64,000 nt of DNA. Source: a virus. How positions within the stretch are numbered: position 1 is the stretch's first letter; each line of letters begins with the position of its first letter. The position numbers and the translations under genes were made by a program. Location of the stretch: IMG/VR virus record IMGVR_UViG_3300008954_003554, positions 19,334-83,333 of that record; one strand, given 5' to 3'. This document shows, one piece after another, positions 971 through 54,280 of this stretch. The notes below the pieces were generated by a model. It saw only the letters and a program-made list of their open reading frames with translations, did not search any database and was not told the DNA's origin.

Positions 971-1390
971 ATGAAAATTTCCGAGAAAAATCTTAGAAAG
1001 CTGGTTTTATTGGAAATCCTAAAAGAACAGTATCAGCCCCGGGACGACGACCCCGAAGAAAGCCCTGAAAGCCCTGAAGGATCAGAAGAAAATGAATCCT
1101 ACCAGGTTAATAAAAGAGTTGAGAAGGCAATAAAAAAAGCTTCTACTTCCACCTTTAGGAATAGAAAATTTCGATCTCTTCTTAATAAGTTGCAGACCGT
1201 TACGGTTCCTCTTTACGGCAACAAGACGATAGATTTTAAGCTAGACCCGAAGCAGCCGACCAGCCTTCATTTTACTATTAAGAATATTGTAACAAGCCCA
1301 AAACTCCAAAATATCAACCTAACAGGAAAGGTAGATGATCTGATGAAACGTGATCCCAAGGTTTCATTGAGAATCTCTGGACGATTTTAG
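971..1390 (+). CDS. Leader-bearing small protein (MKISEKNLRK type)
   Basis: 139 residues. I chose the ATG at 971 because it follows a GGGAGAGAG ribosome site and starts the shared leader; a longer frame from 929 would overlap the previous gene by 31 bases. Leader residues 1-15 are followed directly by LKEQYQPR (about residues 18-25), the second motif shared by six proteins here. An acidic Pro/Glu/Ser linker follows, then a basic domain with TSTFRNRKFRSLLNKL. No known domain. By analogy with T4 internal proteins I infer a capsid-packaged protein matured by cleavage near the leader. Confidence 0.8.
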   Translation: MKISEKNLRKLVLLEILKEQYQPRDDDPEESPESPEGSEENESYQVNKRVEKAIKKASTSTFRNRKFRSLLNKLQTVTVPLYGNKTIDFKLDPKQPTSLHFTIKNIVTSPKLQNINLTGKVDDLMKRDPKVSLRISGRF

Positions 1391-1407
1391 CACAAGGAAA
1401 ATTTACT

Positions 1408-1986
1408 ATGAAAGTCACACGCAAACAATTAAGAAATCTTGTCAGGAAGACCCTCAAGTCTGATCTGAGAGAGCAGTATGAACCCAGAGAGCCTAGTCTT
1501 CCGAATCCGGAAGATCATGACTTTACAGGTCCGATCGGAGATGGAAATATTCTCAGGAAGTGGATCTGCATGAGCGGAATCCCTGGGGGTGAGGGAGAGG
1601 AACAATGGGGGTGGATGCGAATTCAACCTAACAAGAAAATTAAATTTGGAAATTGGGGTGATCAAAGTGTAGTCTCGATTTCCCAACTCGAGATAGAATC
1701 TAGGGTTGATAAGTCTTTTAACGAGGATGAGATTAGGGTTTATGGATTTAAGAGGGGTCGGAACGGTAAGCTCTACGTTTCTGGAGAAGTCAACATGGGT
1801 CGACTTCTTGGAGGCTGGCAGGGTGTAGAGCCCGGAACCTGGAAAAGGGTTGATGCTCCCGATGCGAATTCTGTGATTAGAAGCATACTCACCCAATTAT
1901 ACCGACATGAGGAAGCTTCTGTTGAACTCGAAAGACACGATGTTCCTGTGGTAGGGGATGTCACAATAACACTTTCTGTGGCATAA
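1408..1986 (+). CDS. Leader-bearing protein, 192 aa
   Basis: Starts at ATG 1408 after AAGGAAA. The leader MKVTRKQLRNLVRK is followed by LREQYEPREP (about residues 20-29), then a Pro-rich linker. The body (about 45-192) is a Trp/Gly-rich, probably beta-rich domain containing the stretch GGEGEEQWGWMRI. No family recognised. It lies 17 bases after the previous leader gene, in the same operon. Candidate internal head (cargo) protein by leader type. Confidence 0.8.
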   Translation: MKVTRKQLRNLVRKTLKSDLREQYEPREPSLPNPEDHDFTGPIGDGNILRKWICMSGIPGGEGEEQWGWMRIQPNKKIKFGNWGDQSVVSISQLEIESRVDKSFNEDEIRVYGFKRGRNGKLYVSGEVNMGRLLGGWQGVEPGTWKRVDAPDANSVIRSILTQLYRHEEASVELERHDVPVVGDVTITLSVA

Positions 1987-2063: not shown

Positions 2064-2384
2064 ATGAAAATATCAAAAAAATATCTTAGAAGACTCATCA
2101 AGGAAGAGCTCACACACCTATCAGAGGGAGTCGTACGTCTTAGATTTCTCCACAAACAGAAGATTGATGACTATGTGTGGCGGGCAACCTCCGATAGCGG
2201 CGGCGGTGGCCAGCATGAAATCACAACACCTGATGGTGAAGAATGGGTGAAGGAGGACAGTGAGCTCGTAAAGGTTCACCGCAGCGGTGATTATAATCCA
2301 GCGGATGACATAGATGAGATCCACGCTGCCATGAAGAGTCACCGTGACACAGGCGAGTTTCCTGAGGGATGGACTAAACGATGA
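2064..2384 (+). CDS. Leader-bearing small protein, 106 aa
   Basis: Starts at ATG 2064, with a TTG three bases earlier and an AGGGAG site upstream. The leader MKISKKYLRRLIKEEL runs to LSEG, an L-x-E end compatible with T4-type prohead protease sites. The rest contains GGGGQHEITTPDGEEW and resembles a small beta domain; no family recognised. Its stop overlaps the next start as ATGA, so the two are translationally coupled. An AT motif (TATTTAATAAA near 2026) upstream could be a late promoter. Confidence 0.75.
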   Translation: MKISKKYLRRLIKEELTHLSEGVVRLRFLHKQKIDDYVWRATSDSGGGGQHEITTPDGEEWVKEDSELVKVHRSGDYNPADDIDEIHAAMKSHRDTGEFPEGWTKR

Positions 2385-2746
2385 AGATAACACGTAGACA
2401 ATTAAGAAGAATCATACTTGAGGAGAAGCAGAGGTTGATGCTTGAGTCTAGCGCTGGTGAGAAAAGACAGTCAGAGATGCGCCAGTTTGCAGAGAGCAGA
2501 GGCGGAGCTAGAGTCAGGAGTGAGGGCAACAAGATTAAAGCATCTTCCGAGGCGATTCAGCGACTGGCAACAGAGCAGACCGGTCTCATGAGGGACACAC
2601 TCTATAGGATGTCTGAGTTTGTTAGGAAGGTCGGTGAGTCATATGGAAGCATCGGCTTGCTAGATGAGGGTGGTTCGGTCGGAGACACCCTGCCATCGAT
2701 CAAAGAGCTGAAAGCCTTAGCGAAGTCAATGAAAAAACTTGAATAG
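2381..2746 (+). CDS. Leader-bearing helical protein, 121 aa
   Basis: Coupled to the preceding gene by ATGA. The near-consensus leader MKITRRQLRRIILEE is followed by LMLESS. The remainder is predicted helical and charged, with few hydrophobic stretches. No domain recognised. It is one of a run of leader genes here that have very different bodies but almost identical first 15 codons. Confidence 0.8.
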   Translation: MKITRRQLRRIILEEKQRLMLESSAGEKRQSEMRQFAESRGGARVRSEGNKIKASSEAIQRLATEQTGLMRDTLYRMSEFVRKVGESYGSIGLLDEGGSVGDTLPSIKELKALAKSMKKLE

Positions 2747-2754: not shown

Positions 2755-3369
2755 ATGAAAATAACACGCAGACAATTAAGACAGATTATTAAAGAAGAGA
2801 TGAATAGGTCACTTCTGAAAGAAGGCGAAAGCGCACGGATGGCAGCCCGTGCACTGAACCGCTCTCGGGTAGGTACAGCATACTGGCAAAGTAGTGGCCT
2901 AAACTATAGTGGAAATCCTGCCTTTAGAATGATGCCGCCTGCTCACATTGCTCTCGCAGTCGCTGCCGGGGTTGTGTCTGCTGCTGTAGCTACAGAGGTG
3001 ATGAGAGCTGCCGGGATGCTTCCGACCGCGTCAGGTGAAGCTCTAACAATATATGATATCGGAAAGATAGATCCTTTCTATAGCGCGCCTGACGTTAAAA
3101 AGAGTGCTGAATGGCAGATATGTCTCGCAGATGCTCGGACTCACGCAAGGAGTGTTGGGAAAGTTTGTGTCTGGGTGAAGGGAAACATCGGTGAAGAGAA
3201 GGTTTATGTCATACATCCTGATGGAAATCTAACAAGTGGGGACAGAGATCAGAACGTGATGACTGTGAGTGAGAATGGAAGATTTGCCCGTGACGGCAGG
3301 CTTTTCTATGAGAGAAGTTGTTCTATATGTGATGATGCAGCAGAGGTTAGAAGCAGATGTCATCGATGA
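2755..3369 (+). CDS. Leader-bearing protein with a hydrophobic segment, 204 aa
   Basis: Leader MKITRRQLRQIIKEE, then LLKEGE. Residues about 62-87 form a hydrophobic Ala-rich helix (AHIALAVAAGVVSAAVATEV), which could insert in a membrane or pack in a bundle. The C-terminal domain carries several cysteines (ICLADART, VCVWVKG, SCSICDD). No family recognised. The stop overlaps the next start as ATGA. A packaged protein that interacts with membrane is possible but not shown. Confidence 0.8.
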   Translation: MKITRRQLRQIIKEEMNRSLLKEGESARMAARALNRSRVGTAYWQSSGLNYSGNPAFRMMPPAHIALAVAAGVVSAAVATEVMRAAGMLPTASGEALTIYDIGKIDPFYSAPDVKKSAEWQICLADARTHARSVGKVCVWVKGNIGEEKVYVIHPDGNLTSGDRDQNVMTVSENGRFARDGRLFYERSCSICDDAAEVRSRCHR

Positions 3370-6647: not shown

Positions 6648-6926
6648 ATGAAAATAACACGCAGACAGCTAAGACAGATTATTAAAGAAGAAACTAGAAA
6701 ACTATCAGAAGGGTGGGGTATAGATACTGGGATAGCGATTCCGAAACACGGCGTGACAATCGGTGATGTCCAGGACGAGGCTATGAGGCTTGATCAAGAC
6801 CTTTATTTCATTAACGACCGTGGAAAAACATATAAGGTGATGTCAGATGGTAATCTCCAAGGTCTGCCCGGAGATGAGCTTCCATCAGGTGTTGATGATA
6901 GATTAGTATATACAAGGAGATCATAA
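6648..6926 (+). CDS. Leader-bearing small protein, 92 aa
   Basis: Leader MKITRRQLRQIIKEE then KLSEG. Its first 15 codons are nearly identical at DNA level to those at 2755, so the leader was copied recently. The body is a short mixed alpha/beta domain (YFINDRGKTYKVMSDGNL). ATAGTTATAATATGG sits about 25 bases upstream, the candidate late promoter motif. Its stop TAA shares a base with the next ATG. Confidence 0.8.
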   Translation: MKITRRQLRQIIKEETRKLSEGWGIDTGIAIPKHGVTIGDVQDEAMRLDQDLYFINDRGKTYKVMSDGNLQGLPGDELPSGVDDRLVYTRRS

Positions 6927-7537
6927 TGAAAATCACGCGCAGACAGCTAAGGCAGATCATTAAGGAAGCTGGCGGGTATCGTGATTATTCTGATGATGAA
7001 GTTGAATATACCTCGCGTGCCGGAACATTATATGACGAGCTCCCTGGCTTAGGCCCGAGAGACGATCATCTTGAAAACATAAGTTCGCAAGACATGGCTG
7101 ACGCAAAAAGACATGCGGGTGATGACCCAAAGGCACAAGCAGATTATCTCGACATCAGTGTTGAAGATTGGAATCGAATTCGCCAAGAGACAGATGATTG
7201 GTACGAAGAGAGACACATTCTTGATCAGATGGAGATGGTTGATGACAAATTTATTGACTGGTCCAGAGACTTAGCAAAAGCTTTGAAGTATAGAAGCGTT
7301 GAAGATATGCCTGCCGATATGACAAGTGATTCTTACGGAGGACCCTATGATGCTTGGGACAGAGGTGTAAGTCCTGCAGACTATGCAGCGAGTGCTTATT
7401 CTCCAGGGCTAGATAAGACTTCTTCGGGCGGGAGGCACCCGCTCGACGTCGACGGAGACGGAAAGCTGACAATATCTGAAATGAAGATCACGCGTAGACA
7501 GCTAAGAAGAATCATAAGAGAGGCTGCTGAGATATAA
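6926..7537 (+). CDS. Leader protein with EF-hand loop and a second leader at its C-terminus
   Basis: 203 residues. N-terminal leader MKITRRQLRQIIKEA. Near the end is a canonical calcium loop DVDGDGKLTISE (about 174-185), as in EF-hand or dockerin repeats. It is immediately followed by a complete second leader, MKITRRQLRRIIREAAEI, which closes the protein. The second leader has its own ATG at 7481 and could be the relic of a downstream gene fused in frame and then truncated. The middle is acidic and Tyr/Asp-rich. Calcium binding is inferred from the loop only. Confidence 0.8.
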   Translation: MKITRRQLRQIIKEAGGYRDYSDDEVEYTSRAGTLYDELPGLGPRDDHLENISSQDMADAKRHAGDDPKAQADYLDISVEDWNRIRQETDDWYEERHILDQMEMVDDKFIDWSRDLAKALKYRSVEDMPADMTSDSYGGPYDAWDRGVSPADYAASAYSPGLDKTSSGGRHPLDVDGDGKLTISEMKITRRQLRRIIREAAEI

Positions 7538-9903: not shown

Positions 9904-10005
9904 GCTCTAAGAGTAGATCAAGGGCGTAAGGAACAGAGAGCCGCTAAACCTCTCAGAGAATCATCAATCACCCACACATACGTTACCACCCCTAAGAGAG
10001 CGCGC

Positions 10006-10034
10006 GTGTAATCAGGAGCTGACCGTGGTACAAT
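10006..10034 (+). promoter_or_regulatory. Early-type promoter GTGTAA-N17-TACAAT
   Basis: Reads into the SH3-like gene array; the first gene follows after AAGGAGG. Confidence 0.75.
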
Positions 10035-10055
10035 AGATCTATAAGGAGGTTCTCA

Positions 10056-11372: not shown

Positions 11373-11376
11373 TTAG
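11359..11376 (+). pseudogene. Vestigial array junction: MKVGD then stop
   Basis: GTG AAA GTC GGT GAT TAG follows member 7 in the usual overlap. It marks where another array gene was joined and deleted. Confidence 0.6.
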
Positions 11377-11382
11377 TGACTG

Positions 11383-28152: not shown

Positions 28153-28638
28153 ATGAGAGTTACTCGCAAGCAGTTAAGAAAAATAATCCGGGAAGAATCC
28201 TTCAGGGCACTTAGGGAGCAAACAGCACCTGAGCCCCCAGAGCCAGGAGAGGAAGATGAAGAAGATGAAGAGAGAGACTATGGAGACAGCCGAGCCGGAC
28301 GACCAGACCCGAAAGCTGTCCCCTGGAGGAAAATTACTGAAGAGATGGCTGGACAGGGCGGTAAGCTCGTTGCCATGGACAAGGGTTCCGGTCTTGGACA
28401 GGTTTACTTTTTTGGTGTTGGAGATCACCCCCCGAAAGGGTGGCCAGTCAAAATGCTCATGCGAGTAAAGAATGAAAAAGGACAAAGTGCCAAGGAGCTT
28501 GGAATAGAGATACGAAGGGTCGGAAGTGCTGTAAGTGGAAATAAGAATGTGAAGCTCGGTCGAGCAAGCACAGACTTTGAGATGGTTTCAGATGCTGAGC
28601 TTATCTTTGTTGCTTACAATGCAAATGCAGACTTCTAA
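28153..28638 (+). CDS. Leader-bearing protein, 161 aa
   Basis: ATG 28153 begins MRVTRKQLRKIIREE then LREQTAPEPPEPGEEDEEDE: leader plus acidic Pro/Glu linker. The body (KLVAMDKGSGLGQVYFFGVG) is alpha/beta and unassigned. First gene of the second leader cluster. Confidence 0.78.
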   Translation: MRVTRKQLRKIIREESFRALREQTAPEPPEPGEEDEEDEERDYGDSRAGRPDPKAVPWRKITEEMAGQGGKLVAMDKGSGLGQVYFFGVGDHPPKGWPVKMLMRVKNEKGQSAKELGIEIRRVGSAVSGNKNVKLGRASTDFEMVSDAELIFVAYNANADF

Positions 28639-30519: not shown

Positions 30520-30843
30520 ATGAAGATCACGCGGGGACAGCTTAGGCACATACTCCAGGAGGAGATGACACGGGCATTGCGTGAAGACGGTCACACCGAT
30601 ATCCCCTCAGCACAAAGGGCCATGATGACCTCGATGGAGGACGCGACAGACATTTTAAACGCGTTAGCCCATGCTGATGGCGGTCACCACCTGCCCTCCT
30701 GGTGGATGAAGAAGGTGCACTTAGCCGCGGATTACCTTAATGTGACTCGCGATTATCTCGTCACTAAGCCTCATACGGGACAACAAATTTCTGAAGAGGA
30801 GGGTTCCGGTGGATGCGACTGTGGTTGCGGTAACTGCGGCTAG
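30520..30843 (+). CDS. Leader-bearing protein with Cys-rich tail, 107 aa
   Basis: MKITRGQLRHILQEE, then LRED. Helical middle (MKKVHLAADYLNVTRDYLVT). It ends GCDCGCGNCG, a four-Cys tail that could bind metal. Overlaps the next gene by 35 bases. Confidence 0.76.
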   Translation: MKITRGQLRHILQEEMTRALREDGHTDIPSAQRAMMTSMEDATDILNALAHADGGHHLPSWWMKKVHLAADYLNVTRDYLVTKPHTGQQISEEEGSGGCDCGCGNCG

Positions 30844-31725: not shown

Positions 31726-32253
31726 GTGAAAAACTTAACCAAAAAAGGTCTTCAAAAATTGATTCTTCAAGAGGCCAAGAAACTTAATAGTAAAAAAAGA
31801 GCCCTCAACGAATCGGTCTTGATTGATAATAGCAGGGGAAGTAGAAAAAATCTTAGAACAATGATTCTCAGAGAGGCCAAAAAGATGGGTATCGTTGATG
31901 CACCCAAAGAAAACTGGCCCAGGCCTGGTGACAAAGTATCAGATATTGCAAATAAGGCTGAGTTCTCTAAGATGAAGGTTGACAAGGAAGCAGCGAAGCT
32001 CGTTTCTCACAGCTGTGCCAATCACGTCCTGATGGAATCACCTGGTGATCAGAAGACTCACGGTATTTCAGAAAAACACTCCCTTGGAACCTGTGTCTGG
32101 CACTCACTCAACGAATCAGGTCACGTCTCCCATTACGATGTTCGATTTGGTGATAAGGTTGTCAAGAACATCCCGGCTAGCAGACTAATCGTAATATCTG
32201 AAAGAAGCCATCAACATGAAACCCGTTCAAAAAGAAAGTCTAAGAAAAGCTAA
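31726..32253 (+). CDS. Protein with two tandem leaders, 175 aa
   Basis: GTG 31726 after GGGAGATG. First leader MKNLTKKGLQKLILQEAKKL (1-20), second SRKNLRTMILREAKKM (about 39-54). The C-terminal domain has conserved-looking His/Cys residues (VSHSCANHVLMESP, LGTCVWHSL, GHVSHYDVRFG). Unassigned; metal binding possible. Confidence 0.75.
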   Translation: MKNLTKKGLQKLILQEAKKLNSKKRALNESVLIDNSRGSRKNLRTMILREAKKMGIVDAPKENWPRPGDKVSDIANKAEFSKMKVDKEAAKLVSHSCANHVLMESPGDQKTHGISEKHSLGTCVWHSLNESGHVSHYDVRFGDKVVKNIPASRLIVISERSHQHETRSKRKSKKS

Positions 32254-32278: not shown

Positions 32279-32710
32279 ATGAAAATTTCAATGAATCAAC
32301 TTAAGAGCATCATCAGAGAGGAATCATCTCGAATGAGAGAGCAGCACCAACCCAGGTCAGGAGGAGGAAAAACCGCGGCTGAGTACATCTCCGGAGGACA
32401 TGAGGGCGTATTTATGGAGGTAATGGGAGCTCTCGCTGCATGTGATAAAATATGGGATTGGGTCGAAGGGCAGGTAAGCAACTATGCAAGAATTAATCAG
32501 GGTCCAGTGTCTACTAGCAGCGGTACAGATTATCATGACATTTTAGTTGTTGGGGCAGTCTGCAGTGATTACTTTGACGGTAGTTCAGGTGCAAAAACTT
32601 TTGAGGAGCTTGAAGCGGACAATAAGATTGACGGCTCCTGGAGAAAAGCAGCAGCTAGCGATGGGTTTAGCCTGATGTGGGCCAACGGAATTAAACAGAA
32701 GAATTGTTAA
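32279..32710 (+). CDS. Leader protein with REQHQPR motif, 143 aa (paralogue of 30008)
   Basis: ATG 32279 begins MKISMNQLKSIIREE followed closely by MREQHQPRSGGGKTAAEYIS. Shares its whole body with the gene at 30008 (SDYFDGSSGAKTFEELE, DGSWRKAAASDGFSLMWANG). The longer frame from 32216 overlaps the previous gene. Confidence 0.8.
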   Translation: MKISMNQLKSIIREESSRMREQHQPRSGGGKTAAEYISGGHEGVFMEVMGALAACDKIWDWVEGQVSNYARINQGPVSTSSGTDYHDILVVGAVCSDYFDGSSGAKTFEELEADNKIDGSWRKAAASDGFSLMWANGIKQKNC

Positions 32711-37554: not shown

Positions 37555-38736
37555 GTGAAATATTTAAAAAATATTATTCTGACAGAGAGGGATCTAAGAA
37601 GTATTATCTCTGATAATATACTTTCTGAAAAAAGATTTTATTCTTACGACGGGCCCAGGCGTGCAGGATTTCAAACTTCTGGAGAAGCGGCGTGTAGTGT
37701 TGCAGGCGCAGTAGGTACCAGAATATCGAGTGACAAAGCTAGGATAAAGGCTGGTATCATACTCGGAGTCGGGGTCGATGACGATGACCCGATAGCCAAA
37801 GAAACCTTTGTATCTGATCCGATTAGAAAGAGTGAGTCAGCGGCTGCAATAGGGAGCGATTCAGAGGTAGACGCTGATAGGATGTGGAAGATGACTATTG
37901 GGTATGCTGACGGAGATGGGCCTCAGGCTAACAAACACATGCTAGCACTTTTCATCCTACCAAAACCCGATGAGATTACAATCAGGGCTGCAGAAACTGC
38001 GGAAGACGATGAGGGAGATGAGGTTGTGTTGACCCCGGCGGTAACTACTCCCGGAAGCACTTTAAGATTTATTCTAAGGTACGCAAATAGTGACGGTTCT
38101 CCCATCACCGACGACAGCGGGCACATAGCAGTTGATCCACACACGGGGGCAGTGACTGACAACGATGATAAGTGGTTTAAATCTGTTGTTCCAATAGCTT
38201 TTGAGTGGATGGCACGGTATGTTAATAATGTTGAACTGTGTGATGAAAGGACCCGGGCAAGCATTAGTCGCAGGTCTGGAAGAACTGGGGGGACTACGGG
38301 CGTTTATGCTGCAGGAGCCCTCGCGTTGTCATCGTGGTGGGACGGAGACAGGGATACAGGGCTGCCCGTAAGAGCAGCTTCAGATATTGAAGCCCCCGCC
38401 CGACGGGTTCTTGTTGTGTCCAGAATGACTAGCACTGTGAACGAAAAGCTCGAACAAAAAGCTTCAGGCCTGAGGCGCTGGAGGGTTGATGTAACAGAGA
38501 GTGGAACTCATGTCTATCTTATTCCAACGGGTACCTTCCAGAAAGACAACTCTTATGCAACATCAGCCCGTGAAGATTACAGCACCAACAAAGCAAGAGT
38601 TGGGAGTGCCGATGCGGCCATGCGTAAATTTGGATCCCACGGAAATTTTAAAACATTTTTACAAATTTTAACAAAAGTTTGTGAAGAGCTGGGGGAAAAT
38701 GATCCAGGCTCGACTCTTATTGATATGTCAAGATAG
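37555..38736 (+). CDS. Leader-bearing protein, 393 aa
   Basis: GTG 37555, seven bases after the previous stop. MKYLKNIILTERDLRSIISD is a shifted leader (LTERDLRSIISDNIL). The body is unassigned alpha/beta (LRFILRYANSDGSPITDDSG). Its 3' end faces the minus-strand metallopeptidase gene nine bases away. Confidence 0.76.
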   Translation: MKYLKNIILTERDLRSIISDNILSEKRFYSYDGPRRAGFQTSGEAACSVAGAVGTRISSDKARIKAGIILGVGVDDDDPIAKETFVSDPIRKSESAAAIGSDSEVDADRMWKMTIGYADGDGPQANKHMLALFILPKPDEITIRAAETAEDDEGDEVVLTPAVTTPGSTLRFILRYANSDGSPITDDSGHIAVDPHTGAVTDNDDKWFKSVVPIAFEWMARYVNNVELCDERTRASISRRSGRTGGTTGVYAAGALALSSWWDGDRDTGLPVRAASDIEAPARRVLVVSRMTSTVNEKLEQKASGLRRWRVDVTESGTHVYLIPTGTFQKDNSYATSAREDYSTNKARVGSADAAMRKFGSHGNFKTFLQILTKVCEELGENDPGSTLIDMSR

Positions 38737-40804: not shown

Positions 40805-41281
40805 ATGAAATTACGAGACGAAAATTTTCTAAGAGACTATATTAGGAACATTATTAGAGAAAGAAAATATGATTCTATTTCTTGCGGAATAGTGGTCGTA
40901 AAAAAATTTGGAAACAAATGGAAGCCCCTTGCGCTGATTGTCGGCAGCAAGATAGATATTCCCAAAGGAAGGGTTGAAGATGGCGAAAATACGCTAGAGA
41001 CTGCGACTAGGGAGACTTATGAAGAGTCGGGAATTTCTGATCTTAATTTTTCCTGGGGAAGGGATTTCCTTAGGGTTCAAAACATGGTTGTATATCTTGC
41101 ATCAACAACGCAGGAACCTAAAATAATTCCAAACCCTGTTACCGGTCGAATGGAACATGATTTTTGGAAGTGGATGGATTGGGAGGATATGATATCAAGA
41201 AGTAGTCCCAAGATAAGGCACTCTCTTAGGTGGGCAAAAAGAAAAATTCAGCAAAATGATTTATTGACATCAGTTTTTTAA
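40805..41281 (+). CDS. NUDIX hydrolase with leader-like N-terminus
   Basis: 158 residues. Full Nudix box GRVEDGE-x7-RETYEESGI (55-77), which binds Mg and hydrolyses nucleoside diphosphate-linked compounds such as damaged dNTPs, NAD(H) or mRNA caps. The first 20 residues (MKLRDENFLRDYIRNIIRER) look like the packaging leader, so this enzyme may travel in the head. Starts a mostly A+T-rich operon with the YeaH-SpoVR-PrkA trio. Confidence 0.88.
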   Translation: MKLRDENFLRDYIRNIIRERKYDSISCGIVVVKKFGNKWKPLALIVGSKIDIPKGRVEDGENTLETATRETYEESGISDLNFSWGRDFLRVQNMVVYLASTTQEPKIIPNPVTGRMEHDFWKWMDWEDMISRSSPKIRHSLRWAKRKIQQNDLLTSVF

Positions 41282-43810: not shown

Positions 43811-43864
43811 TGCAAAGGGTTTATATTTCCATAATTCAAAGTAAAATCTCATATAGAGGATCAG

Positions 43865-45796
43865 ATGCCTGATAAGAACAAATTTTTAAAAATCATAGAA
43901 GATCAAAGAAAAGGAAAAAAGAAAGAAAAGTTTTCTGGTAATTTCCTAGAGTATCTTAATATTATAAAGGAAAATCCTGAGACAACTCAGACGGCTCATC
44001 AGAGACTCTACAGGAAGATTGAAAGCTTTGGTGTGAGTGAGATAGATCGATCTGACCCTAGATTCCAGGGGGTTTTTTGCGGAGAAAAAGTTAAAACATA
44101 TGAATATTTCAAAGATGAATTTTTTGGAATGGAAAATGTAATTTCAAAAATAATGAGATTTCTTAGGTCTGCTGCACACAGAGGTGAAGAGAGCAGGCAG
44201 GTTCTTCTCCTTCTTGGCCCAGTTGGTGCAGGTAAATCAGCGCTGACAGAGCATGTAAAAAAATCGCTCGAAGGGGAGAGGTTTTATCATTTATCAGGAG
44301 ATCCCCAGAAAGGGGAGCCCCTCCAGTTGATCCCTAGAAACCTAAGGGAAAAATTTGAAGAAATTCTAGGTGTAAAAATAGAGGGAGATATCAGTCCCGT
44401 TGCCAGATTTAAGCTCCTCGAAGAGTTCAAGGGAAAATATGAGAATTTTCCTGTTGTAGAATCAAGCTTTTCCCAGAGAGCTCGTAGAGGGATAGCTGTT
44501 GTTCCTCCCATGGATCCAAATAGTCAGGACACCAGCGTTCTAATAGGGTCGGAAGATATATCTAAATTAGACTTATATCCAGAAGACGATCCCAGAACGC
44601 TATCTCTCAATGGAGCTTTTAACGTCGGAAATAGGGGAATCGTAGAGTTTGTTGAAATTTTTAAAAATGAAATAGAGTTTTTACATACCATTATTACGGC
44701 AACACAGGAAAAAAGAGTACCTAGCCCGGGAAAAAATGCTATGATTCACTTCGACGGTGTGATACTTTCTCACTGTAATGAAGCTGAGTGGAATAAGTTT
44801 CAAAGTGAACATACTAATGAGGCAATCTTAGATAGGATTGTTATGATTAGAGTTCCATACGTTCTTGAGCTAGATCAAGAAATTAAAATATATGAAAAGA
44901 TGATATCTCGATCAGACTTTTCGGCACACATTGCTCCTCATACCCTTAGAGTTGCCTCAATGTTTTCTGTTGCCTCTAGGCTCAGGGAGTCTCAAAAGTG
45001 CGATATTTTAACAAAAATGAAAATCTATAACGGAGAAGATGTTATAGAAAAGGGAAGAGTCAAAAGCATAGACATTACAGATCTAAGAGAGGAATCCCAC
45101 GATGAAGGAATGAGCGGAATATCTACAAGATTTATAATGAAATCCCTAGATAATGCCCTATCCGATTCAGAAAAAGGAATGGTTACACCTATTTCGGTAG
45201 TCGACGCCCTTGTCAAGCAAGTGAAAGAACAGGTAGTCTCAGAAGAAGAAAGAACAAGATTGCTAGAAATTCTACAAAAAACAATTAGAGAAGAGTATCT
45301 TAAAATCCTAGAAAATGAAATCGCAAAAGCGTTTGTCACCGCTTACGAAGAGCAGGCACAATCACTTTTTGATTCTTATCTCGATAATGCTGAAGCATAC
45401 ACTACTAGAAAAAATCTAAAAGATCGCGTTACAAAAGAAGAAAGAGATCCAGATGAGCATTTCATGAGAGCAATTGAAGAACAGATTGGAATATCGGGAT
45501 CTTCTCGCGATGGATTTAGATCAGATGTCACAGCATATATGTTTGCTAAAATGAGAAGAGGTGAAAAAGTAGAGTATAAAACTTATACCCCTCTCAAAGA
45601 AGCGATTGAATCTTATTTAATATCTTCAGTAAAAGATATAGCTAGAATTGTTACAAAGAGTAAATCAAGGGACGATGATCAAAAGAAGAAATATAGTGAA
45701 ATGATCCAGACCCTCATAGATGAATATGGTTACAATAAAGATTCTGCAGAGGAAATTTTAACTTATGCAGCTAACAATCTCTGGAGAGATTCATAA
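43865..45796 (+). CDS. prkA: PrkA/YeaG serine kinase-family AAA+ protein
   Basis: 643 residues, full length. The N-terminal PrkA AAA domain has Walker A GPVGAGKS (118-125); characteristic segments include FFGMENVISKIMRFLRSAAH, SLNGAFNVGNRGIVEFVEIF and DGVILSHCNEAEWNKF. PrkA proteins were reported as serine kinases and also act as ATP-dependent proteases in Bacillus. With SpoVR and YeaH it forms the complete three-gene stress module. Confidence 0.92.
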   Translation: MPDKNKFLKIIEDQRKGKKKEKFSGNFLEYLNIIKENPETTQTAHQRLYRKIESFGVSEIDRSDPRFQGVFCGEKVKTYEYFKDEFFGMENVISKIMRFLRSAAHRGEESRQVLLLLGPVGAGKSALTEHVKKSLEGERFYHLSGDPQKGEPLQLIPRNLREKFEEILGVKIEGDISPVARFKLLEEFKGKYENFPVVESSFSQRARRGIAVVPPMDPNSQDTSVLIGSEDISKLDLYPEDDPRTLSLNGAFNVGNRGIVEFVEIFKNEIEFLHTIITATQEKRVPSPGKNAMIHFDGVILSHCNEAEWNKFQSEHTNEAILDRIVMIRVPYVLELDQEIKIYEKMISRSDFSAHIAPHTLRVASMFSVASRLRESQKCDILTKMKIYNGEDVIEKGRVKSIDITDLREESHDEGMSGISTRFIMKSLDNALSDSEKGMVTPISVVDALVKQVKEQVVSEEERTRLLEILQKTIREEYLKILENEIAKAFVTAYEEQAQSLFDSYLDNAEAYTTRKNLKDRVTKEERDPDEHFMRAIEEQIGISGSSRDGFRSDVTAYMFAKMRRGEKVEYKTYTPLKEAIESYLISSVKDIARIVTKSKSRDDDQKKKYSEMIQTLIDEYGYNKDSAEEILTYAANNLWRDS

Positions 45797-45808
45797 GTTT
45801 AATTTAAA

Positions 45809-47203
45809 ATGAATGTAAATATTTTAAATAGAGAGGAAATAAAAAGCTCTATAATAAAAAATAGTAAAAGTCTAATTGACATAGGGAAAGAAGAGACTCT
45901 TATCGGATTTAGTTCTTTTAAGCCCATTATTACACAGAACGGAATTCAATCTGCTATTTTTACCAGATCAGGGGATAGGATTTTTGATAAAATAATAAAG
46001 CCTACTATTATTATAGATTGTATTGATGCAGAGCTTTCTGTCCCTGGGTCTGGAGATATATCTTTAGATATAACTTCAAGATTAATTTATAACCTCTACG
46101 GAAAAATAGGAACAGGAATAGATTTTAAAGACTATTCAAAAATTTCAAATAATTTTCTATCTTTTTGCATAGAGGCAATAAGAGATATAGGTTATCATCC
46201 TACAAAAAAAGACTTACAAAAGCTAATAAATCAAGAAAACAAAGATCCCTTTATTAGAAGCGTGATCAAAAGTTGTATCGATTTATCAGGCGCCAGACGA
46301 GAGATAACATGCAGAGTTTCTAATTCTTTTGAAACAATGATAAAAGTTGAAGAAGGTTATAAGTTTCCTATAAAACCCTATCAGGGATTTGTTTCCGAAA
46401 AATGGAAAAAGAACAATGTCGCAGTCATTACAATAGACGGGGCAGTTGTAGAAATATCAGAGATACATCACGTCCTAGAAAAATGTAGTGAAAAAGAAAT
46501 ACCTGCAATTATTTTTTGTAGAAATTTTTCTCCTGATGTTTTAAATACCCTTTATGTAAATAAAAGACGAGGAACTCTTGATATTATTCCAGTTGAAATA
46601 TCAATAGAAGACGAGACGCTTAATATGCTAAAAGACATATGCGTTGTTTCTGGTTCGAGATTGATTAGCTCCGACATGGGAGATCTAATATCTTCTTCAG
46701 TTAGGAAAGGATTGATATATGTCGACTCAGTAGAGATGACTGAGGATTATGTTAAGATATTTAATAGAAAAACTGAAAAAGACTCTCGTGAGCATCTGAG
46801 GTTTTTAAAAAATAAAAGAAGTAAAGCTGATCCGCAGGTCCAGCCCTATATCGATGATAGAATAAAATCCATGACTTGTGAGTCAGTTTCGATTTCTATC
46901 GGACAAGATCAATTAAATCGAAATAAAGTTACTGTGGAAAAAATTGATAGCTTCTTAAGATCTTTAAAAACTTTTTTTAGAACCGGATGTGTTGATACAG
47001 TAGAGTTTGAAAAAGTCCTATTAAAAAGAAAAAAAATATCAGAAAATATAGAAAAAATTCTAATTGATTCAATTATAAATGCTATCAAATCCTCTAATAA
47101 AAAAATTATTTCTGTTGGTTCGGTTGTAAAGGCGTTGAAAATCTCTATGTCAACAGCTAATTCTATTTTTTCTACTTCAGTTATTCTGGCTGATGATAGT
47201 TAA
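45809..47203 (+). CDS. Divergent GroEL-like chaperonin
   Basis: 464 residues, shorter than GroEL (~545). The apical domain is recognisable: YQGFVSEKWKKNNVAVITID (opening like GyxSPYF...), IPAIIFCRNFSPDVLNTLYV, NKRRGTLDIIPVEI, then LNMLKDICVVSGSRLISSDM matching the LeDiAiLTGG region. The equatorial ATP-binding GDGTT motif is not evident, so ATP use is uncertain. Phage chaperonins exist (e.g. phage EL) and some are single-ring. It may fold head or fibre proteins or a phage client. Confidence 0.8.
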   Translation: MNVNILNREEIKSSIIKNSKSLIDIGKEETLIGFSSFKPIITQNGIQSAIFTRSGDRIFDKIIKPTIIIDCIDAELSVPGSGDISLDITSRLIYNLYGKIGTGIDFKDYSKISNNFLSFCIEAIRDIGYHPTKKDLQKLINQENKDPFIRSVIKSCIDLSGARREITCRVSNSFETMIKVEEGYKFPIKPYQGFVSEKWKKNNVAVITIDGAVVEISEIHHVLEKCSEKEIPAIIFCRNFSPDVLNTLYVNKRRGTLDIIPVEISIEDETLNMLKDICVVSGSRLISSDMGDLISSSVRKGLIYVDSVEMTEDYVKIFNRKTEKDSREHLRFLKNKRSKADPQVQPYIDDRIKSMTCESVSISIGQDQLNRNKVTVEKIDSFLRSLKTFFRTGCVDTVEFEKVLLKRKKISENIEKILIDSIINAIKSSNKKIISVGSVVKALKISMSTANSIFSTSVILADDS

Positions 47204-48418: not shown

Positions 48419-48787
48419 GGGCCCGAAACGGCTTCGACGGGGTAGGAGAGAAGAAGAGTGCAGGTGGTCGCACGAGACAGCGGACCTTAAGCGTGGTTTC
48501 AAAACTTTAATTGCCAATAACAATTATCACTTCGAATCTGTCCGCCTAGCGGCTTAATCGGTGGGGTTTCTTAAGACCTTATTACCCAATTTAAGATAAC
48601 AGGTAGAGATCCTGCGAAATAAAAAAATCAGAATGGTTCCCTGGAAACAGGTGGGGCGCAACAGGTTGATAAGCGCAGGGATGATCAACTATCTTTTCTA
48701 ATTTGTGATAGTAAATTAGATAAACCTGTGAATGACTTGACTTTGAAGCTATTGCGGACGCGGGTTCGACTCCCGCCGGGTCCACCA
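48419..48787 (+). ncRNA. ssrA: tmRNA, phage-encoded, tag ANNNYHFESVRLAA
   Basis: The 5' end GGGCCCG pairs with CGGGTCC at the 3' end, including the G3-U70 pair needed for alanine charging; encoded CCA. The D-region GGCTTCGACGGGG and T-arm GCGGGTTCGACTCCCGC are standard. The tag frame runs 48513-48557: GCC resume codon to TAA, 14 residues ending LAA, as required for ClpXP-type degradation. It would rescue stalled ribosomes and tag products with its own sequence. Confidence 0.96.
48513..48557 (+). CDS. tmRNA tag reading frame
   Basis: Fourteen codons plus TAA, translated only by trans-translation from the GCC resume codon: A-N-N-N-Y-H-F-E-S-V-R-L-A-A. Charged and aromatic residues replace the usual DENYA middle. 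Confidence 0.9.
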   Translation, partial: ANNNYHFESVRLAA

Positions 48788-48795
48788 TTTTTTAT
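48765..48795 (+). repeat. 31-bp direct repeat: tmRNA 3' end, left copy
   Basis: From TTCGAC of the T arm through CCA and the TTTTTTAT tail. Identical to 49498-49528. Confidence 0.95.
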
Positions 48796-48840
48796 GTTTC
48801 TCAGCTAGCCAGATAGTTATATCTGCACGGGAGATCTACA

Positions 48841-49497
48841 ATGAAGGTAACAAGATCACAGTTGAGAAGAATTATTAAAGAAGAGCTAAATAGAGCCTTA
48901 CTTATGGAGAGAGGGACAGCGGATTCTGTTGCAACTAAGCAGGCATGCCCGGAAGAATATTGCAGTCGATCTGTAGCAAAGGTTGGAAATCTAGTTCAGG
49001 ATACCGGGGGCTATAGTTTCACACCATCTGGAGGGTCAGAGTATCCATCATTTAAGGACGAAAAAGAAAACCTCATTGGAAAAGAGGGGACAGAGTGGTC
49101 AGATCTCAAGGTTGTTAAGTACGATGATGACTCGGAAAAAAGAGCCACAGAGAGTCGAGAGATAGAGCGTCGAGAGAAAGAAGCAGCCAATCTTCAGAAG
49201 AAACTCAATGACATCATAGATGAAATCGGAGAGAATAACTCATGGGCAACTGTCGATGAGATGTCTAAAAACAGCGGTGCTTGTGATGGCTGTAAGGTCT
49301 GGGTGAGATTTCATTTGAATGTAAACGACTATGATGACAGAGCTGATATGCCGAAAGATTGGGATGGGACTCCTTCCGAGGGAAAGATAGATCAACAGAA
49401 GCTATGGGCCGCAATCGACAAGGCATCATTTTGGCTTGCTAAGCTCTACGATGAGGGAAGTATCGATGATCAGACATATCAGCTCAAGTATAAGTGA
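48841..49497 (+). CDS. Leader-bearing protein inserted between tmRNA-end repeats, 218 aa
   Basis: MKVTRSQLRRIIKEELNRAL, then LMERG. Acidic/basic body with a coiled region (RAAESREIERREKEAANLQK-like) and a Cys pair (GACDGCKVW). The stop TGA is immediately followed by the second copy of the tmRNA 3' end. ATAGTTATATC lies upstream. Likely a cassette that entered at the tmRNA. Confidence 0.8.
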   Translation: MKVTRSQLRRIIKEELNRALLMERGTADSVATKQACPEEYCSRSVAKVGNLVQDTGGYSFTPSGGSEYPSFKDEKENLIGKEGTEWSDLKVVKYDDDSEKRATESREIERREKEAANLQKKLNDIIDEIGENNSWATVDEMSKNSGACDGCKVWVRFHLNVNDYDDRADMPKDWDGTPSEGKIDQQKLWAAIDKASFWLAKLYDEGSIDDQTYQLKYK

Positions 49498-49528
49498 TTC
49501 GACTCCCGCCGGGTCCACCATTTTTTAT
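49498..49528 (+). repeat. 31-bp direct repeat: tmRNA 3' end, right copy
   Basis: Exact copy of the tmRNA T-arm-to-tail segment with no tmRNA body attached; 733 bases from the left copy. Confidence 0.95.
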
Positions 49529-49557
49529 ATTTTTCAGATTCAGTGATATTTATACAC

Positions 49558-50571
49558 ATGCTGATAACTGAGTCAAAGCTAAGAAGAATCATTAGAGAAG
49601 AGTTTAAACAACAATTCACACCCAAAGAGATGGGCATTGATCACGATCCCGAAGAGCGAAAGGCATTAAAATGGTGGCAAAGCCCTAAAAAAAGACAGGA
49701 ATTTGCAGAGAGCTATACTTCCGGACAAAATAGAATCTCTCTTATCAGCACAGTTAAATCTAAAGTTTTCAAATCAGATACACCTGATGATATTATAAAA
49801 GATTATTACGACGAATTTATACTACCCCAGATCCTATACATTATCAATGAAACGTGGGTCGTACGGGAGCCTTTGCGATCTAAAAAAGGAACAAGATATG
49901 TCAGTCCGAACTGGAGTGAAAAAGGCTCTCAAGAGTTACATGATCCAAATCGCATAAGTAAGTCTGGCAAAATTGTGAAAGGAACTAATTGGATCGCAAT
50001 CATCCCTGGTCTCGTAGCCGGCTTATTAGCAGGTCCGATCTGGGGTGGTCTGGTTGGTGGAGTTATGCTACTAGTAAAAGCAATAGAGTGGAGAAGATAC
50101 ACTTTTGGTCATGAGTTATCGCACGCAATAGACAGGGAAGTTGATCTTATGATGGGAATCAGGTGGGAGAACGGATATCAGAATCCAAAAAGTATCTATA
50201 GACAGTCTACTGATCCAGTAGAAAATCCAAAATACTTACCCTATAGAAATGAAAAAATAAAGATAAATCGGGGATCTATTGTTGCCCACCAGAGAGAAAT
50301 TCTAAGAGATATATTCCCATGTATTAATGAGGATCATCCAGAATATAAGGATGAACATGCACATAGTCCGGGTGAGCTGTACTCTAACGTAATTCAAACA
50401 CGTAAAAATCTAAAAAGAAAATTTAAAGCTAGTGATATTAAAAAATGGAGGGTGCGTGGGAAGATACCGGTAGGGGGGCATAGTTCAGTATCTGATTTGG
50501 TACAAATTATAAAAGCATGCGGAAATGGATCTAACGAAGAGATTGCAACTGCATTAAACAAGCTAGGCTGA
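49558..50571 (+). CDS. Leader + HExxH metallopeptidase-like membrane protein
   Basis: 337 residues from ATG 49558 (MLITESKLRRIIREE; a longer frame opens at 49543). Two adjacent membrane helices (WIAIIPGLVAGLLAGPIWGG...VMLLVKAIEW) are followed at once by the zinc motif FGHELSHAIDREVD (HExxH plus D). The N-terminal region contains KWWQSPKKRQEFAESY. Topology plus leader suggest a packaged peptidase that meets the host membrane during entry; this is inference. Confidence 0.78.
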   Translation: MLITESKLRRIIREEFKQQFTPKEMGIDHDPEERKALKWWQSPKKRQEFAESYTSGQNRISLISTVKSKVFKSDTPDDIIKDYYDEFILPQILYIINETWVVREPLRSKKGTRYVSPNWSEKGSQELHDPNRISKSGKIVKGTNWIAIIPGLVAGLLAGPIWGGLVGGVMLLVKAIEWRRYTFGHELSHAIDREVDLMMGIRWENGYQNPKSIYRQSTDPVENPKYLPYRNEKIKINRGSIVAHQREILRDIFPCINEDHPEYKDEHAHSPGELYSNVIQTRKNLKRKFKASDIKKWRVRGKIPVGGHSSVSDLVQIIKACGNGSNEEIATALNKLG

Positions 50572-50652
50572 TTTACCTATACCTGATTTTTTGTATACTT
50601 TCCTTGAGTTACAATTTTTGTTACTCAATTCACACACACAAAGGAAAATAAA

Positions 50653-50865
50653 ATGGGTGATTCAAAAAGCGGGTACCAGCTCCGCACAGACTTGCTGGGA
50701 ATGGCTACAGGAATTGTAATTGACAGGGCTAATCGTCTTGAGAATAATGAGCACTTCCTGGCAGAAAATGATAAAACATATCAGCGTAAGCCAGTTTCTC
50801 CGTATACAACCGAGGATGTTATTGCTGAAGCTGAGAAGCTTTATGTATTCGTTCAGAAGAAGTAG
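50653..50865 (+). CDS. Conserved small phage protein, 70 aa
   Basis: MGDSKSGYQLRTDLLGMATG with C-terminal YTTEDVIAEAEKLYVFVQKK. This two-block pattern is common in T4-like and cyanophage genomes as a conserved hypothetical protein. AAGGAAAATAAA precedes. Followed by a terminator. Confidence 0.75.
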   Translation: MGDSKSGYQLRTDLLGMATGIVIDRANRLENNEHFLAENDKTYQRKPVSPYTTEDVIAEAEKLYVFVQKK

Positions 50866-50880
50866 TATCTAAAAAAAATT

Positions 50881-50920
50881 AAACCTCTGATTTGACATAT
50901 AGTTATTTCAGAGGTTTTTT
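50881..50920 (+). terminator. Rho-independent terminator
   Basis: AAACCTCTGA/TCAGAGGTTT with a long AT loop and T-run. Confidence 0.85.
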
Positions 50921-50995
50921 AGTTTAAAGATAGTGAATGAAAACTAGCCTCAATATTTGTAAAAAACAATCGATCTAAGCGATCTAGGGTAAAAA

Positions 50996-51184
50996 ATGAA
51001 TTGGTATAAAAGAATTATTAAAAGAAATCATTTAAAAGAAAGTAGGGCATTTTATCTAGAAGATACCCCGGAGATTACAGATGAAATAGAGAAATCTCTC
51101 TGGCTGCTCAAAGAAGACCTAGATTTACCAACAGAAGAGATTCAAAAATCTGTTGACTCTAGAAGAAAATCAAGAAACAAGTAA
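50996..51184 (+). CDS. Small protein, 62 aa
   Basis: MNWYKRIIKRNHLKESRAFY; basic start, acidic middle (YLEDTPEITDEIEKSLWLL). The start recalls a degenerate leader, ending LKES. Function unknown. The 228 bases after it hold no gene, only an AT-rich TATTTAATAATT motif near 51373. Confidence 0.55.
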   Translation: MNWYKRIIKRNHLKESRAFYLEDTPEITDEIEKSLWLLKEDLDLPTEEIQKSVDSRRKSRNK

Positions 51185-51412
51185 GCTTCCCACGGGACCA
51201 TGCTCACAGAAATAGGAATACAAGGTATCTGGGACCCAGCCAGATATATCCGACATCGATATATGTGGTTTAGGTTAAATACCTATTGACACACAAACAG
51301 AAGCTGTTCTAAGTGTAGATAAGATTTGTCAATATTTCTATGCTAATAATAGTTATTTTCACTCTTGGGCCAATATTTAATAATTGTTATTGCCCTCCAA
51401 GGAGAGAGTCAA

Positions 51413-54280
51413 ATGATTTCTAAGAAAGGTCTTAGGGCTATTATAGAAGATGAGTTAAGATCAAATATAAGGCTTGATGAACAATTTGACCTTGTGCCAG
51501 AGCTTATAGACGACACCGGAGCCCCTGAAGGGAGCCTTGGTAGACCTGATCTTAATCCGGGTCGAGGGGTAGGCCCGACGTGGGGTGGTGATCACCCTAC
51601 GGGAGCTCCTCGCTCAATAGAGTCTGGTCACCCTAATGCTCTTCTGGCAGGTGAAATAGCTATTGGCATGACCCCGGCAGGTGTGGCCATAGATGCTAGA
51701 GATACAGTTAGAGCCATAAGGAATAGAGATCCTGCCGGATTCGGTCTTGCGATTATTGGGTTTATTCCCTGGGGTGGCGACTGGCTAAAGGGTTTGGGAA
51801 AGAGGCTTAGAAGAAAAGGCAGAGATATACCCGATATCTCTGCCACTGATGATCTGACACTTGAAGACTTTGAGATGTGGGATCCAAGGGCTATGGATGA
51901 TGTGGCTGAGGAGCTTGGTGAAGAAGGGATGGACGCCCTAGAGCGGAGAGCTCGCGGATTACGTAGCCACGATGATGCTGTCAAAAGAGCTTCTAGAGAA
52001 GGAGTCCCAACAATAAAAGGTGCACCGTATAGAAAGTGGGCAAGAGCGTGGGATATTCTTGAGGATGTTGAACCCCTGGAGAGGGCAGAAGATCTAGCGG
52101 CTAGATTGAGAGCTGCCTCGGGAGCTGGCGCTGTTAGAAGACAACTGGGAGAAGTAGAAGATATTGTCGATGAGCTTGCCAGGAGACAGAAAGCTCTTGT
52201 AGAAGGGATGGATGCTGTTAAAGGAAATGCAGACCACTGGGTGGAACCGTTTGCCGTAGGTCTTGACATTCAAGAAGATGTTCTTAGAGAGCTATCTGCT
52301 GCCGCACTTCCCCAGGCCAGAAGAGCTGGCATGATGGATGAGTATGCGGTGTCGATGAGAAGGGCTGTTGAAGGATCTGGCCTAAGCGGCCTTAAAAAGA
52401 GACATATTTTCGGAATACTTCTCGGCGGAGCAGTTGCTGTCGGAGGCGCCCGGGCCTGGTCTAGATCTCGATCTGGGCGACAAGAGCTCGGTACAGACAT
52501 AACTGGCGATGAAGATGATGAATATGAAGAGGCTTTGGATACAGGAGAGTATACCCGGGGTGATATCGAGGATGAGGAAGAAGACGATGAAGAGGAAGAT
52601 GGAATTGATGATACTAGTAATCCTGGAATATGGGAAAATAAAGTGAAAATAAATAAAAGAACCCTGGAAAAGATAATAAAAGAAGAGATAAACAGATATA
52701 CCTTGCTGGAACAGGTTTTCGATAGCCCTAGAATGGATCCTGAGGCAGTCCTTGCGACACAGATAGCTACAGGGCAGATTGAAGAGCCTGAGAACTGGCC
52801 GGGCACCGGTGATACGGATCCTTATGAAGCTTCTCAATGGGGCTTGGCTCTTGCATCCTTCTTTCCCGGCGCCGGTGAAGTAGCTGACGTTGCTGCTACA
52901 TCCCTCTACTTGGCCGAAGCACTTGATAAAAAACAGGAAGGCGATGAGGAGGGGTATGAGATAGCTATGGGTAACGCTGTTTTTACTGCTGCATTAATAC
53001 CGATTCCCATTGTAGGAAGCTGGCTAACCAAGCTTGTTCCAAATTCTCTCATCGGCTGGTTCGTTAAAAAGTTCTCCGTAAAGGTTGATACTCTCGGTCC
53101 TGTACCTGACATGACCGATGAGATGACTGAGGTTACCGAAGACTTTGCAAGCAGACTTGATGATCTTGGTGGCGGAACTCCGGCAACCCGACAACAAGCC
53201 CAGAGGGAGTTGATGACTAGAGAAGGTTTGCCCGTTAGGACTGGTCCGGACCCTGATGATTTGGCCGAAGTCACTGCTGATCTGACTCAAGGGAGAGAGT
53301 TAGCAGGTCGAGTAACCCAGGAGGCAGATGACGGTATCAGATTTGCTGATGAGATAACAAGTGAAGTGACGTCAGGATCTGGCCTTGGCCCCAGGGTTGC
53401 TGGAGATGTGACACAAGCAGGATCCCGAACGGGGGATGACATTCTCAGAGCAGCCTCAGAGGTTCCTGTTCCAAGGATAAGAGGAAGAGCTTTGATAAAT
53501 AGAACGCTTAACCTGGGGGTAGAGGCGCTACAAAAACTAGACATAACCCTCCAATATGGCCAGACGGTTCTGTCTACCCTGAGGCGAGGGGCTAAAGTAG
53601 ACGGAGACATGATCAAGCAGATAGGGGCAATTGGAACAGAAATGAAAGCCCTAAGCAATGCGGTAGCAACTTCTACTAAACAGGCTGCCAGAAGAGATGG
53701 GACAGAGTTAGCAGCAGATCTGATTCACTGGAAGGGAGCTTATCAACAGGGATATGCTGCTCTAAAGGACATGTCTAAGACTATAAATCGAGAAATTTTT
53801 TCAACGGCTAGCGGTCGAGTTGTCGATGTTAGGACTCTTAGGACAGTAAGTAGTGCATGGCAAGAGGGTCGTGGACCCATAAGAGCAATTTATGAAAAAA
53901 TTGGCGGGGGAAGAACTCTGCTCGGGATGTTTGCTACTGGCACTACCGTAGTTGTAACACGAGAATACTTCAGAGCACACAGCGGAAGTCAGTCAGCGGA
54001 TCCATACCCAACTTCTGACTCCGATACCGGAATAGATTCGGAGACCGGAGCAGTAAACGATGAGGAGTCTATCTCTGTAGATCCCCCAGATGTAGAGGCA
54101 CAGGTAGGCTTTCAAGGAAGAGCAGCACCTGAACTGGTTGAAAATGCTCCACCTGAAGCTCTGGAGGTAGTAGATAATGATGGTACCCAGGTTGATGTTC
54201 AACCGCTAATACAAGCTGCTTCCCAAGAGGCAGGTAGTGATGAAATGCCTTCTGCTTTGAGTTGCCCGGAGTGCTGGTAG
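51413..54280 (+). CDS. Giant two-module leader fusion protein, 955 aa
   Basis: ATG 51413 after AAGGAGAGAGTCAA (MISKKGLRAIIEDELRSNIR). Module 1: linker, hydrophobic segment (LLAGEIAIGMTPAGVAI, FGLAIIGFIPWGGDWLKGLG), charged helical region, helix LLGGAVAVGGARAW, acidic linker. At about residue 421 a second leader starts (KINKRTLEKIIKEEINRYTL), followed by module 2 of the same plan (LALASFFPGAGEVADVAA, ALIPIPIVGSWLTKLV). FIPxxGDxxK-type hydrophobic hairpins also occur in pre-toxin regions. Probably a packaged membrane-active protein formed by fusion of two cargo genes. Confidence 0.8.
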   Translation: MISKKGLRAIIEDELRSNIRLDEQFDLVPELIDDTGAPEGSLGRPDLNPGRGVGPTWGGDHPTGAPRSIESGHPNALLAGEIAIGMTPAGVAIDARDTVRAIRNRDPAGFGLAIIGFIPWGGDWLKGLGKRLRRKGRDIPDISATDDLTLEDFEMWDPRAMDDVAEELGEEGMDALERRARGLRSHDDAVKRASREGVPTIKGAPYRKWARAWDILEDVEPLERAEDLAARLRAASGAGAVRRQLGEVEDIVDELARRQKALVEGMDAVKGNADHWVEPFAVGLDIQEDVLRELSAAALPQARRAGMMDEYAVSMRRAVEGSGLSGLKKRHIFGILLGGAVAVGGARAWSRSRSGRQELGTDITGDEDDEYEEALDTGEYTRGDIEDEEEDDEEEDGIDDTSNPGIWENKVKINKRTLEKIIKEEINRYTLLEQVFDSPRMDPEAVLATQIATGQIEEPENWPGTGDTDPYEASQWGLALASFFPGAGEVADVAATSLYLAEALDKKQEGDEEGYEIAMGNAVFTAALIPIPIVGSWLTKLVPNSLIGWFVKKFSVKVDTLGPVPDMTDEMTEVTEDFASRLDDLGGGTPATRQQAQRELMTREGLPVRTGPDPDDLAEVTADLTQGRELAGRVTQEADDGIRFADEITSEVTSGSGLGPRVAGDVTQAGSRTGDDILRAASEVPVPRIRGRALINRTLNLGVEALQKLDITLQYGQTVLSTLRRGAKVDGDMIKQIGAIGTEMKALSNAVATSTKQAARRDGTELAADLIHWKGAYQQGYAALKDMSKTINREIFSTASGRVVDVRTLRTVSSAWQEGRGPIRAIYEKIGGGRTLLGMFATGTTVVVTREYFRAHSGSQSADPYPTSDSDTGIDSETGAVNDEESISVDPPDVEAQVGFQGRAAPELVENAPPEALEVVDNDGTQVDVQPLIQAASQEAGSDEMPSALSCPECW

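Follow-up and report, generated by a model that had tools for sequence, protein, structure and literature searches.

We analyzed a 64,000-nucleotide window of viral DNA (bases 19334-83333 of the 83,333-base virus record IMGVR_UViG_3300008954_003554, here called the contig), in which many genes start with variants of one short basic leader that often ends in L-x-E. It is highly probable that this leader is a removable capsid-targeting sequence (CTS) of a T4-type head, by which cargo proteins would be packed into the capsid and delivered to the next host. The original prediction of a capsid cargo system is supported by four lines of evidence, namely the prohead protease and Gp23 encoded by related phages, leaders on their core genes, L-x-E leader ends matching a predicted capsid-protein site, and a promoter-like motif shared with head genes; this support is inferential and not a demonstration. 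From the sequences, we infer packaging, cleavage and ejection of the leader proteins, as well as the functions of their bodies.

The leader as a self-contained unit

Leaders were scored with a position-specific scoring matrix over 15 residues, which was trained on the contig itself. A gene threshold of at least 14 bits was reached by 34 of 118 called genes, the top of 3825 shuffled proteins scoring 13.8 bits. Scanning the + strand of the contig at a cut-off of at least 11 bits returned 42 leader copies across its 83 kb. Most of them are N-terminal, and some are internal (-3702, -11155 and window positions 4174 and 52643; negative positions denote the contig upstream of the window start) or C-terminal (7481). 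The 27 leader genes listed in the original prediction all have a start codon, and 25 of them score at the start given; 31726 has a weak leader there and another weak copy at 31831, and the leader of 37555 is unsupported. Reading the upstream 19 kb of the record (L001) revealed further copies, including that of a gene that enters the window and ends at position 959. These copies, together with those at 4174, 52643 and 7481, had been absent from the list.

Pairwise DNA identity within the leader is 0.70/0.62 (62-70% of bases), and the flanks (120 bases before the leader, 60-80 after it) are at or near the background identity of 26-29%. The leaders of 2755 and 6648, earlier described as nearly identical at the DNA level, indeed have about 3 mismatches in 45 bases. 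Codons are identical in leader pairs at a frequency of 0.47-0.62, compared with 0.36-0.41 expected. The bodies had been described as lacking mutual similarity, which holds for those compared by BLAST but not for 30008 and 32279, which are related (~41% over 160 amino acids). The leader is a self-contained unit, apart from its bodies. Because the similarity stops at the leader boundary, we rejected the idea that the leader merely marks recent whole-gene duplication.

High DNA identity restricted to the leader and the excess of identical codons could also reflect a spreading sequence cassette, a recombination handle or duplication remnant devoid of protein function, and a repeat-bounded cassette at the end of the phage transfer-messenger RNA (tmRNA; see below) fits this idea. 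Yet the leaders are in frame and nearly always at a start codon, their amino acids are conserved across diverged phages, the L-x-E at their end is constrained (residues 18-23), and conserved core genes bear the same leader type, which makes a functionless cassette exceedingly improbable. Recombination-borne spread may be a route by which new cargo acquires its leader.

Head genes of related phages and the predicted cleavage site

The right arm of the contig (DUF444, SpoVR, PrkA, GroEL-like protein, PhoH and glycosyltransferase) is collinear with the IMG/VR records G004 (255 kb) and G002 (273 kb), both of marine phages, with identities of 52% for DUF444, 54-58% for SpoVR, 71-72% for PrkA, 47-53% for PhoH and 51-52% for the glycosyltransferase. 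A degenerate DNA pattern of the leader identified 36 matching stretches in viral contigs. Ten of the 11 leader records longer than 120 kb, G002 and G004 included, encode a T4-type prohead protease (Peptidase_S77) and Gp23, always together, with 7-45 leader matches each. In G002, leader genes immediately follow the capsid gene, and in LR756508, an uncultured 484 kb phage, several of the 21 leader matches lie just upstream of it. In a bacterial and archaeal collection, the pattern was present in 1 of 84,980 genomes, a metagenome-assembled genome, where all 29 leaders are located on the sole Gp23-bearing contig. Because all copies sit on this phage contig, we rejected the match as a cellular leader.

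In each of the eight head operons examined, two small genes with a leader-type start (e.g. KISKSKLKTLIKECLVEILTES and LTVSKLKQIIKEEKKALKDAG) come right after the protease gene and ahead of the scaffold and capsid genes. Eleven of 13 scored core-gene starts exceeded the 99% level of shuffled proteins, with a profile that had not been trained on them. By position and length, the small genes look like those for core proteins, for example T4 gp67/gp68; the T4 pair lies just before the protease.

We next consider the leader end, using five phages (151 leaders and 711 control windows of equal length); G014, which represents the same virus population as the contig, was left out of these and the promoter-motif statistics. 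As earlier proposed, an L-x-E end is frequent: between residues 16 and 27, 84 of 151 leaders (56%) contain an L/I-x-E, compared with 63 of 711 controls (9%; p=3e-35). The sites cluster at residues 18-19 and 21-23 and are mostly followed by Q, A, S or G. A conserved predicted site in the propeptide of the Gp23-type capsid proteins, at about residue 60, reads LRE/A, LRE/Q or LRE/S (slashes mark predicted cuts). Leader ends thus match the predicted capsid-protein site, and by analogy with T4 the protease would be expected to cut there.

The motif ATATTTA or ATAGTTAT is found shortly 5' of many portal, scaffold and sheath genes in the relatives. Of the 13 leader genes of the contig with sufficient spacing, 8 are preceded by this late-type motif, as are 31726, 40805 and 51413, which are leader-like and sub-threshold in that test. 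In the five phages it precedes 15 of 41 leader genes and 48 of 431 others (Fisher p=6e-5), a test that is supportive and not independent, the motif having first been spotted in both head and leader genes. Its reverse complement precedes 2 of 41 leader genes, and an early-looking promoter (TGTA..., TGGTATAAT) 0 of 41, compared with 26 of 431 others. The shared promoter-like motif supports a possible joint expression of leader and head genes.

One alternative is that the leader, as a basic amphipathic helix with many potential binding partners, docks its proteins onto a different phage structure or onto a host component (inner membrane, replication compartment, RNA polymerase) and has no role in packaging. 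We regard this as very unlikely, given that the leader is found on core genes between protease and scaffold, that its end corresponds to the predicted capsid-protein cleavage site, that leader and head genes have a promoter-like motif in common, and that leaders co-occur with Gp23 in all large enough records but one.

Several points, in addition to the dependence in the promoter test, weigh against a capsid-targeting leader. The contig, a fragment, itself has no head genes, including the capsid gene and prohead protease; the gp21-like protease anticipated in the original prediction was found, with Gp23, in ten of the 11 large leader records but is absent from the 83 kb contig. The leader profile had no match in the T4 genome at E<=0.1, nor in RM378. 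Two of the 13 scored core-gene leaders fall within the shuffled background, and core leaders are more diverged than cargo leaders. Finally, the cut point is uncertain for more than 40% of leaders, because they lack a clear second L/I-x-E. A tblastn search with the leader or a core gene against INPHARED phages, in which short queries are insensitive, returned no matches.

Two further observations concern the head operons of the relatives and the 484 kb phage. A small basic open reading frame (ORF) lies near the scaffold gene in L081 (8337-8555), L082 (8596-8820) and L124 (9110-9337); the L124 ORF is annotated as ribosomal protein S21, and the other two look similar. At L126 17787-23666 in the 484 kb phage, several neighbouring genes start with another short leader (MRLKEILLE, MKFKELLKE) and hold YRGT-like motifs suggestive of ADP-ribosyltransferases.

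A C-terminal tag, the putative cargo bodies and a proposed model for loading

A number of large leader proteins have RWxxLAGI, or a close variant, at their C-terminus. The same type of ending, R[WM]xxLAG[IL], is present in nine of nine scaffold C-termini (eight relatives and a Microcystis phage, RMKKLAGI), and the scaffold of Flavobacterium phage immuto ends likewise. Twelve proteins of the five phages carry the tag, three scaffolds and nine non-scaffold proteins (four with a leader), where shuffling expects 0.24; in further records, 10 of 10 inspected coding-pattern matches lie at a reading-frame end. One family of ~394 amino acids has both leader and tag. L-x-E often directly precedes the tag, as in LLE/RWRKLAGLL. 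These findings support RWxxLAGI as a putative second signal, common to scaffold and large cargo proteins. Two removable tags would have a precedent in T4 Alt, which undergoes processing at each end (PMC9026906).

We compared the bodies to known families. Pfam families matched number 14 for 142 leader proteins and 124 for 140 non-leader G004 proteins, a set that includes metabolic enzymes, portal and capsid. Matches among leader proteins include NUDIX, Zeta toxin, SET, LysM, EF-hand and DUF4385; in addition, L095 14956-15216 joins a leader to a sub-threshold ribosome-modulation-factor (RMF)-like domain (26.6 of 27.9 bits), and a few leader proteins contain HExxH motifs. By sequence, this domain set fits delivered effectors. 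PADLOC returned one weak KwaB match among the 142 proteins. The bodies are mostly orphans, and most differ from one related phage to another. Among 2.9 million viral contigs, no relatives were found for those of 49558 and 51413, and that of 35416 has relatives within the same virus population only. An AlphaFold2 model of 49558 calculated without alignment was unusable (predicted local distance difference test score 38), with the leader drawn as a helix.

A variant of capsid targeting is that leader proteins are packed to build the head or core and are not injected. The conserved leader-bearing core genes are indeed probably structural, as are T4 gp67 and gp68. For the leader proteins at large we find this variant rather doubtful, as the bodies tried have no relatives outside this population, most bodies differ between related phages, and a few have enzymatic or regulatory domains (NUDIX, Zeta-toxin kinase, SET, LysM, sub-threshold RMF), as expected for delivered proteins.

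Several loci suggest how leaders and bodies may be joined. The C-terminal domain of contig gene 14224 follows a 140-residue stretch, and in G004 this domain is joined straight to a leader. A perfect EF-hand loop, DVDGDGKLTISE, immediately precedes leader copies -3702 and 7481, and the two fusions (window 7445-7534; L001 15595-15690) are 90% identical over 29 residues. A phage tmRNA is located at window 48419-48787 (tag ANNNYHFESVRLAA). G002 and G004 also have a tmRNA, directly followed by a leader gene in G002 and with leader genes nearby in G004. Gene 48841 is flanked on both sides by a 57-base repeat made up of the phage tmRNA 3' end and a late-type motif, and between these repeats it looks like an integrated cassette. 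G002 has no equivalent of the block 48841-54280 between its corresponding genes. If our interpretation is right, a gene that gains a leader, for example near the tmRNA or the head genes, would become new cargo and be packed at once.

A capsid-targeting leader could act as follows. Its predicted amphipathic helix would dock late-made proteins onto the assembling prohead core, to which the core proteins themselves would dock in the same way via their own leaders. After shell closure, a gp21-type protease would cut behind L/I-x-E at about residue 21, with a possible additional cut after I-x-E at residue 14, and the bodies would be freed inside the capsid and then delivered along with the DNA. Larger cargo may also bear a C-terminal RWxxLAGI of the scaffold-protein kind. 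The bodies would be fast-changing effector or protective proteins. We give about even chances to the full two-signal scheme, in which a core-mimicking N-terminal leader and a scaffold-mimicking C-terminal tag, both removed by the same protease, load some 10-45 different effectors in each phage, a set that changes quickly and includes multi-module polyproteins with cuts at their internal leaders.

In T4, IPI-IPIII and Alt likewise have a short N-terminal propeptide that ends in I/L-x-E and is cut by gp21, on variable bodies and alongside a T4-type protease and Gp23. T-even internal proteins are highly diverse, the CTS alone being conserved (PMC3012670). The leader described here differs from the T4 CTS in sequence and is longer (~22 residues); the two are analogous, homology being unsupported by the profile search. 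Up to ~45 matches occur in one record, compared with a handful in T4, and the leader is also found on core genes and in internal and C-terminal copies, with an added scaffold-type C-terminal tag. Phage P1 DarB also has an N-terminal packaging signal, its N-terminal 30 residues sufficing to route a reporter into the capsid, whereas the Dar proteins have no common N-terminal consensus by BLAST (PMC9024508). P1 has no separate scaffold system. The relatives of the contig have a T4-type head. In phiKZ and SPN3US, too, a large set of proteins is packed and ejected, some with N-terminal propeptides, and some ejection-protein propeptides of SPN3US are cut after a glutamate motif, A-x-E (PMC10052503). 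Unlike here, there are nine protease substrates, mostly with long individual propeptides (111-254 residues) and no single short common leader. By analogy, the leader would thus function like the T4 capsid-targeting system, in phages of that head type and as a greatly enlarged, two-signal variant. The literature searched, with most subscription journals outside it, contains no account of this leader, its scale or the second tag. If our interpretation is right, one short signature would reveal from sequence the injected protein arsenal of a widespread group of large uncultured marine phages, most of it without an assigned fold or function. Phage-based protein delivery would gain two portable packaging signals, and cargo recruitment would have an explanation open to testing.

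Features of the window

The features of the window are listed below, with matrix scores in bits.

1..959, +, 3' part of a leader protein of ~590 amino acids; start upstream, leader QLMNLKLLRNIIKEEMLRE/Q at -813; C-terminus GRWQKLSGLTE (~924-956), a scaffold-type tag
971..1390, +, leader gene, MKISEKNLRKLVLLEILKE/Q; 23.7 bits
1408..1986, +, leader gene, ...KSDLRE/Q; 32.5 bits
2064..2384, +, leader gene, ...LTHLSE/G; 32.7 bits; late-type motif ATATTTA at ~2023
2381..2746, +, leader gene; 44.4 bits; 88% identity to leader gene G020 129087 of another phage
2755..3369, +, leader gene, ...RSLLKE/G; 46.1 bits
3366..3593, +, leader gene; 43.5 bits
3590..3796, +, leader gene; 34.6 bits
3898..4962, +, leader gene with second, internal leader at 4174 (...ARIVE/G); 36.9 and 20.4 bits
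6648..6926, +, leader gene, ...RKLSE/G; 46.1 bits; late-type motif ATAGTTAT at ~6620
6926..7537, +, leader gene with second, C-terminal leader at 7481 after EF-hand loop DVDGDGKLTISE; 42.2 and 42.1 bits
9215..9865, +, leader gene, ...EEILRE/QQYQPR; 39.8 bits; late-type motif ~9179
28153..28638, +, leader gene, ...RALRE/Q; 38.8 bits
28647..29195, +, leader gene, ...KVLRE/Q; 34.5 bits
29265..29534, +, leader gene; 34.3 bits
30008..30499, +, leader gene, body paralogous to 32279; 18.3 bits; late-type motif ~29971
30520..30843, +, leader gene, ...RALRE/D; 37.2 bits
31173..31523, +, leader gene, GTG start, ...SGLSE/D; 19.2 bits; late-type motif ~31147
31726..32253, +, weak leader at start, second weak copy at 31831 (12.1 bits); late-type motif ~31686
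32279..32710, +, leader gene, paralogue of 30008; 22.4 bits
33883..34689, +, leader gene; 27.2 bits
34691..35344, +, divergent leader gene; 14.5 bits
35416..37548, +, large leader gene, 710 amino acids, TTG start; 24.3 bits; late-type motif ~35376
37555..38736, +, entry of the original prediction, leader unsupported; below 11 bits in the profile scan
40805..41281, +, NUDIX hydrolase (motif and family match), weak leader-like start; 11.1 bits; late-type motif ~40724
48765..48821, +, 57-nucleotide repeat copy 1, tmRNA 3' end and ATAGTTATA
48841..49497, +, leader gene between the two 57-nucleotide repeats, ...RALLME/R; 41.5 bits
49498..49554, +, 57-nucleotide repeat copy 2 (84% identical), immediately 5' of leader gene 49558
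49558..50571, +, leader gene with HELSH (HExxH metalloprotease-like motif); 33.2 bits; late-type motif ~49546
51413..54280, +, 955-residue protein with N-terminal leader and internal leader at 52643; 13.4 and 24.2 bits; late-type motifs ~51349 and ~51373

DUF444, SpoVR and PrkA usually occur together in bacteria. In the window, their genes stand in a row at 41318-47203 with that of a GroEL-like protein, an arrangement that is phage-borne and conserved in the relatives. The region 10000-28000 is GC-richer and contains many short non-leader ORFs and the early-looking promoter TGTA-N(15-22)-TGNTATAAT.

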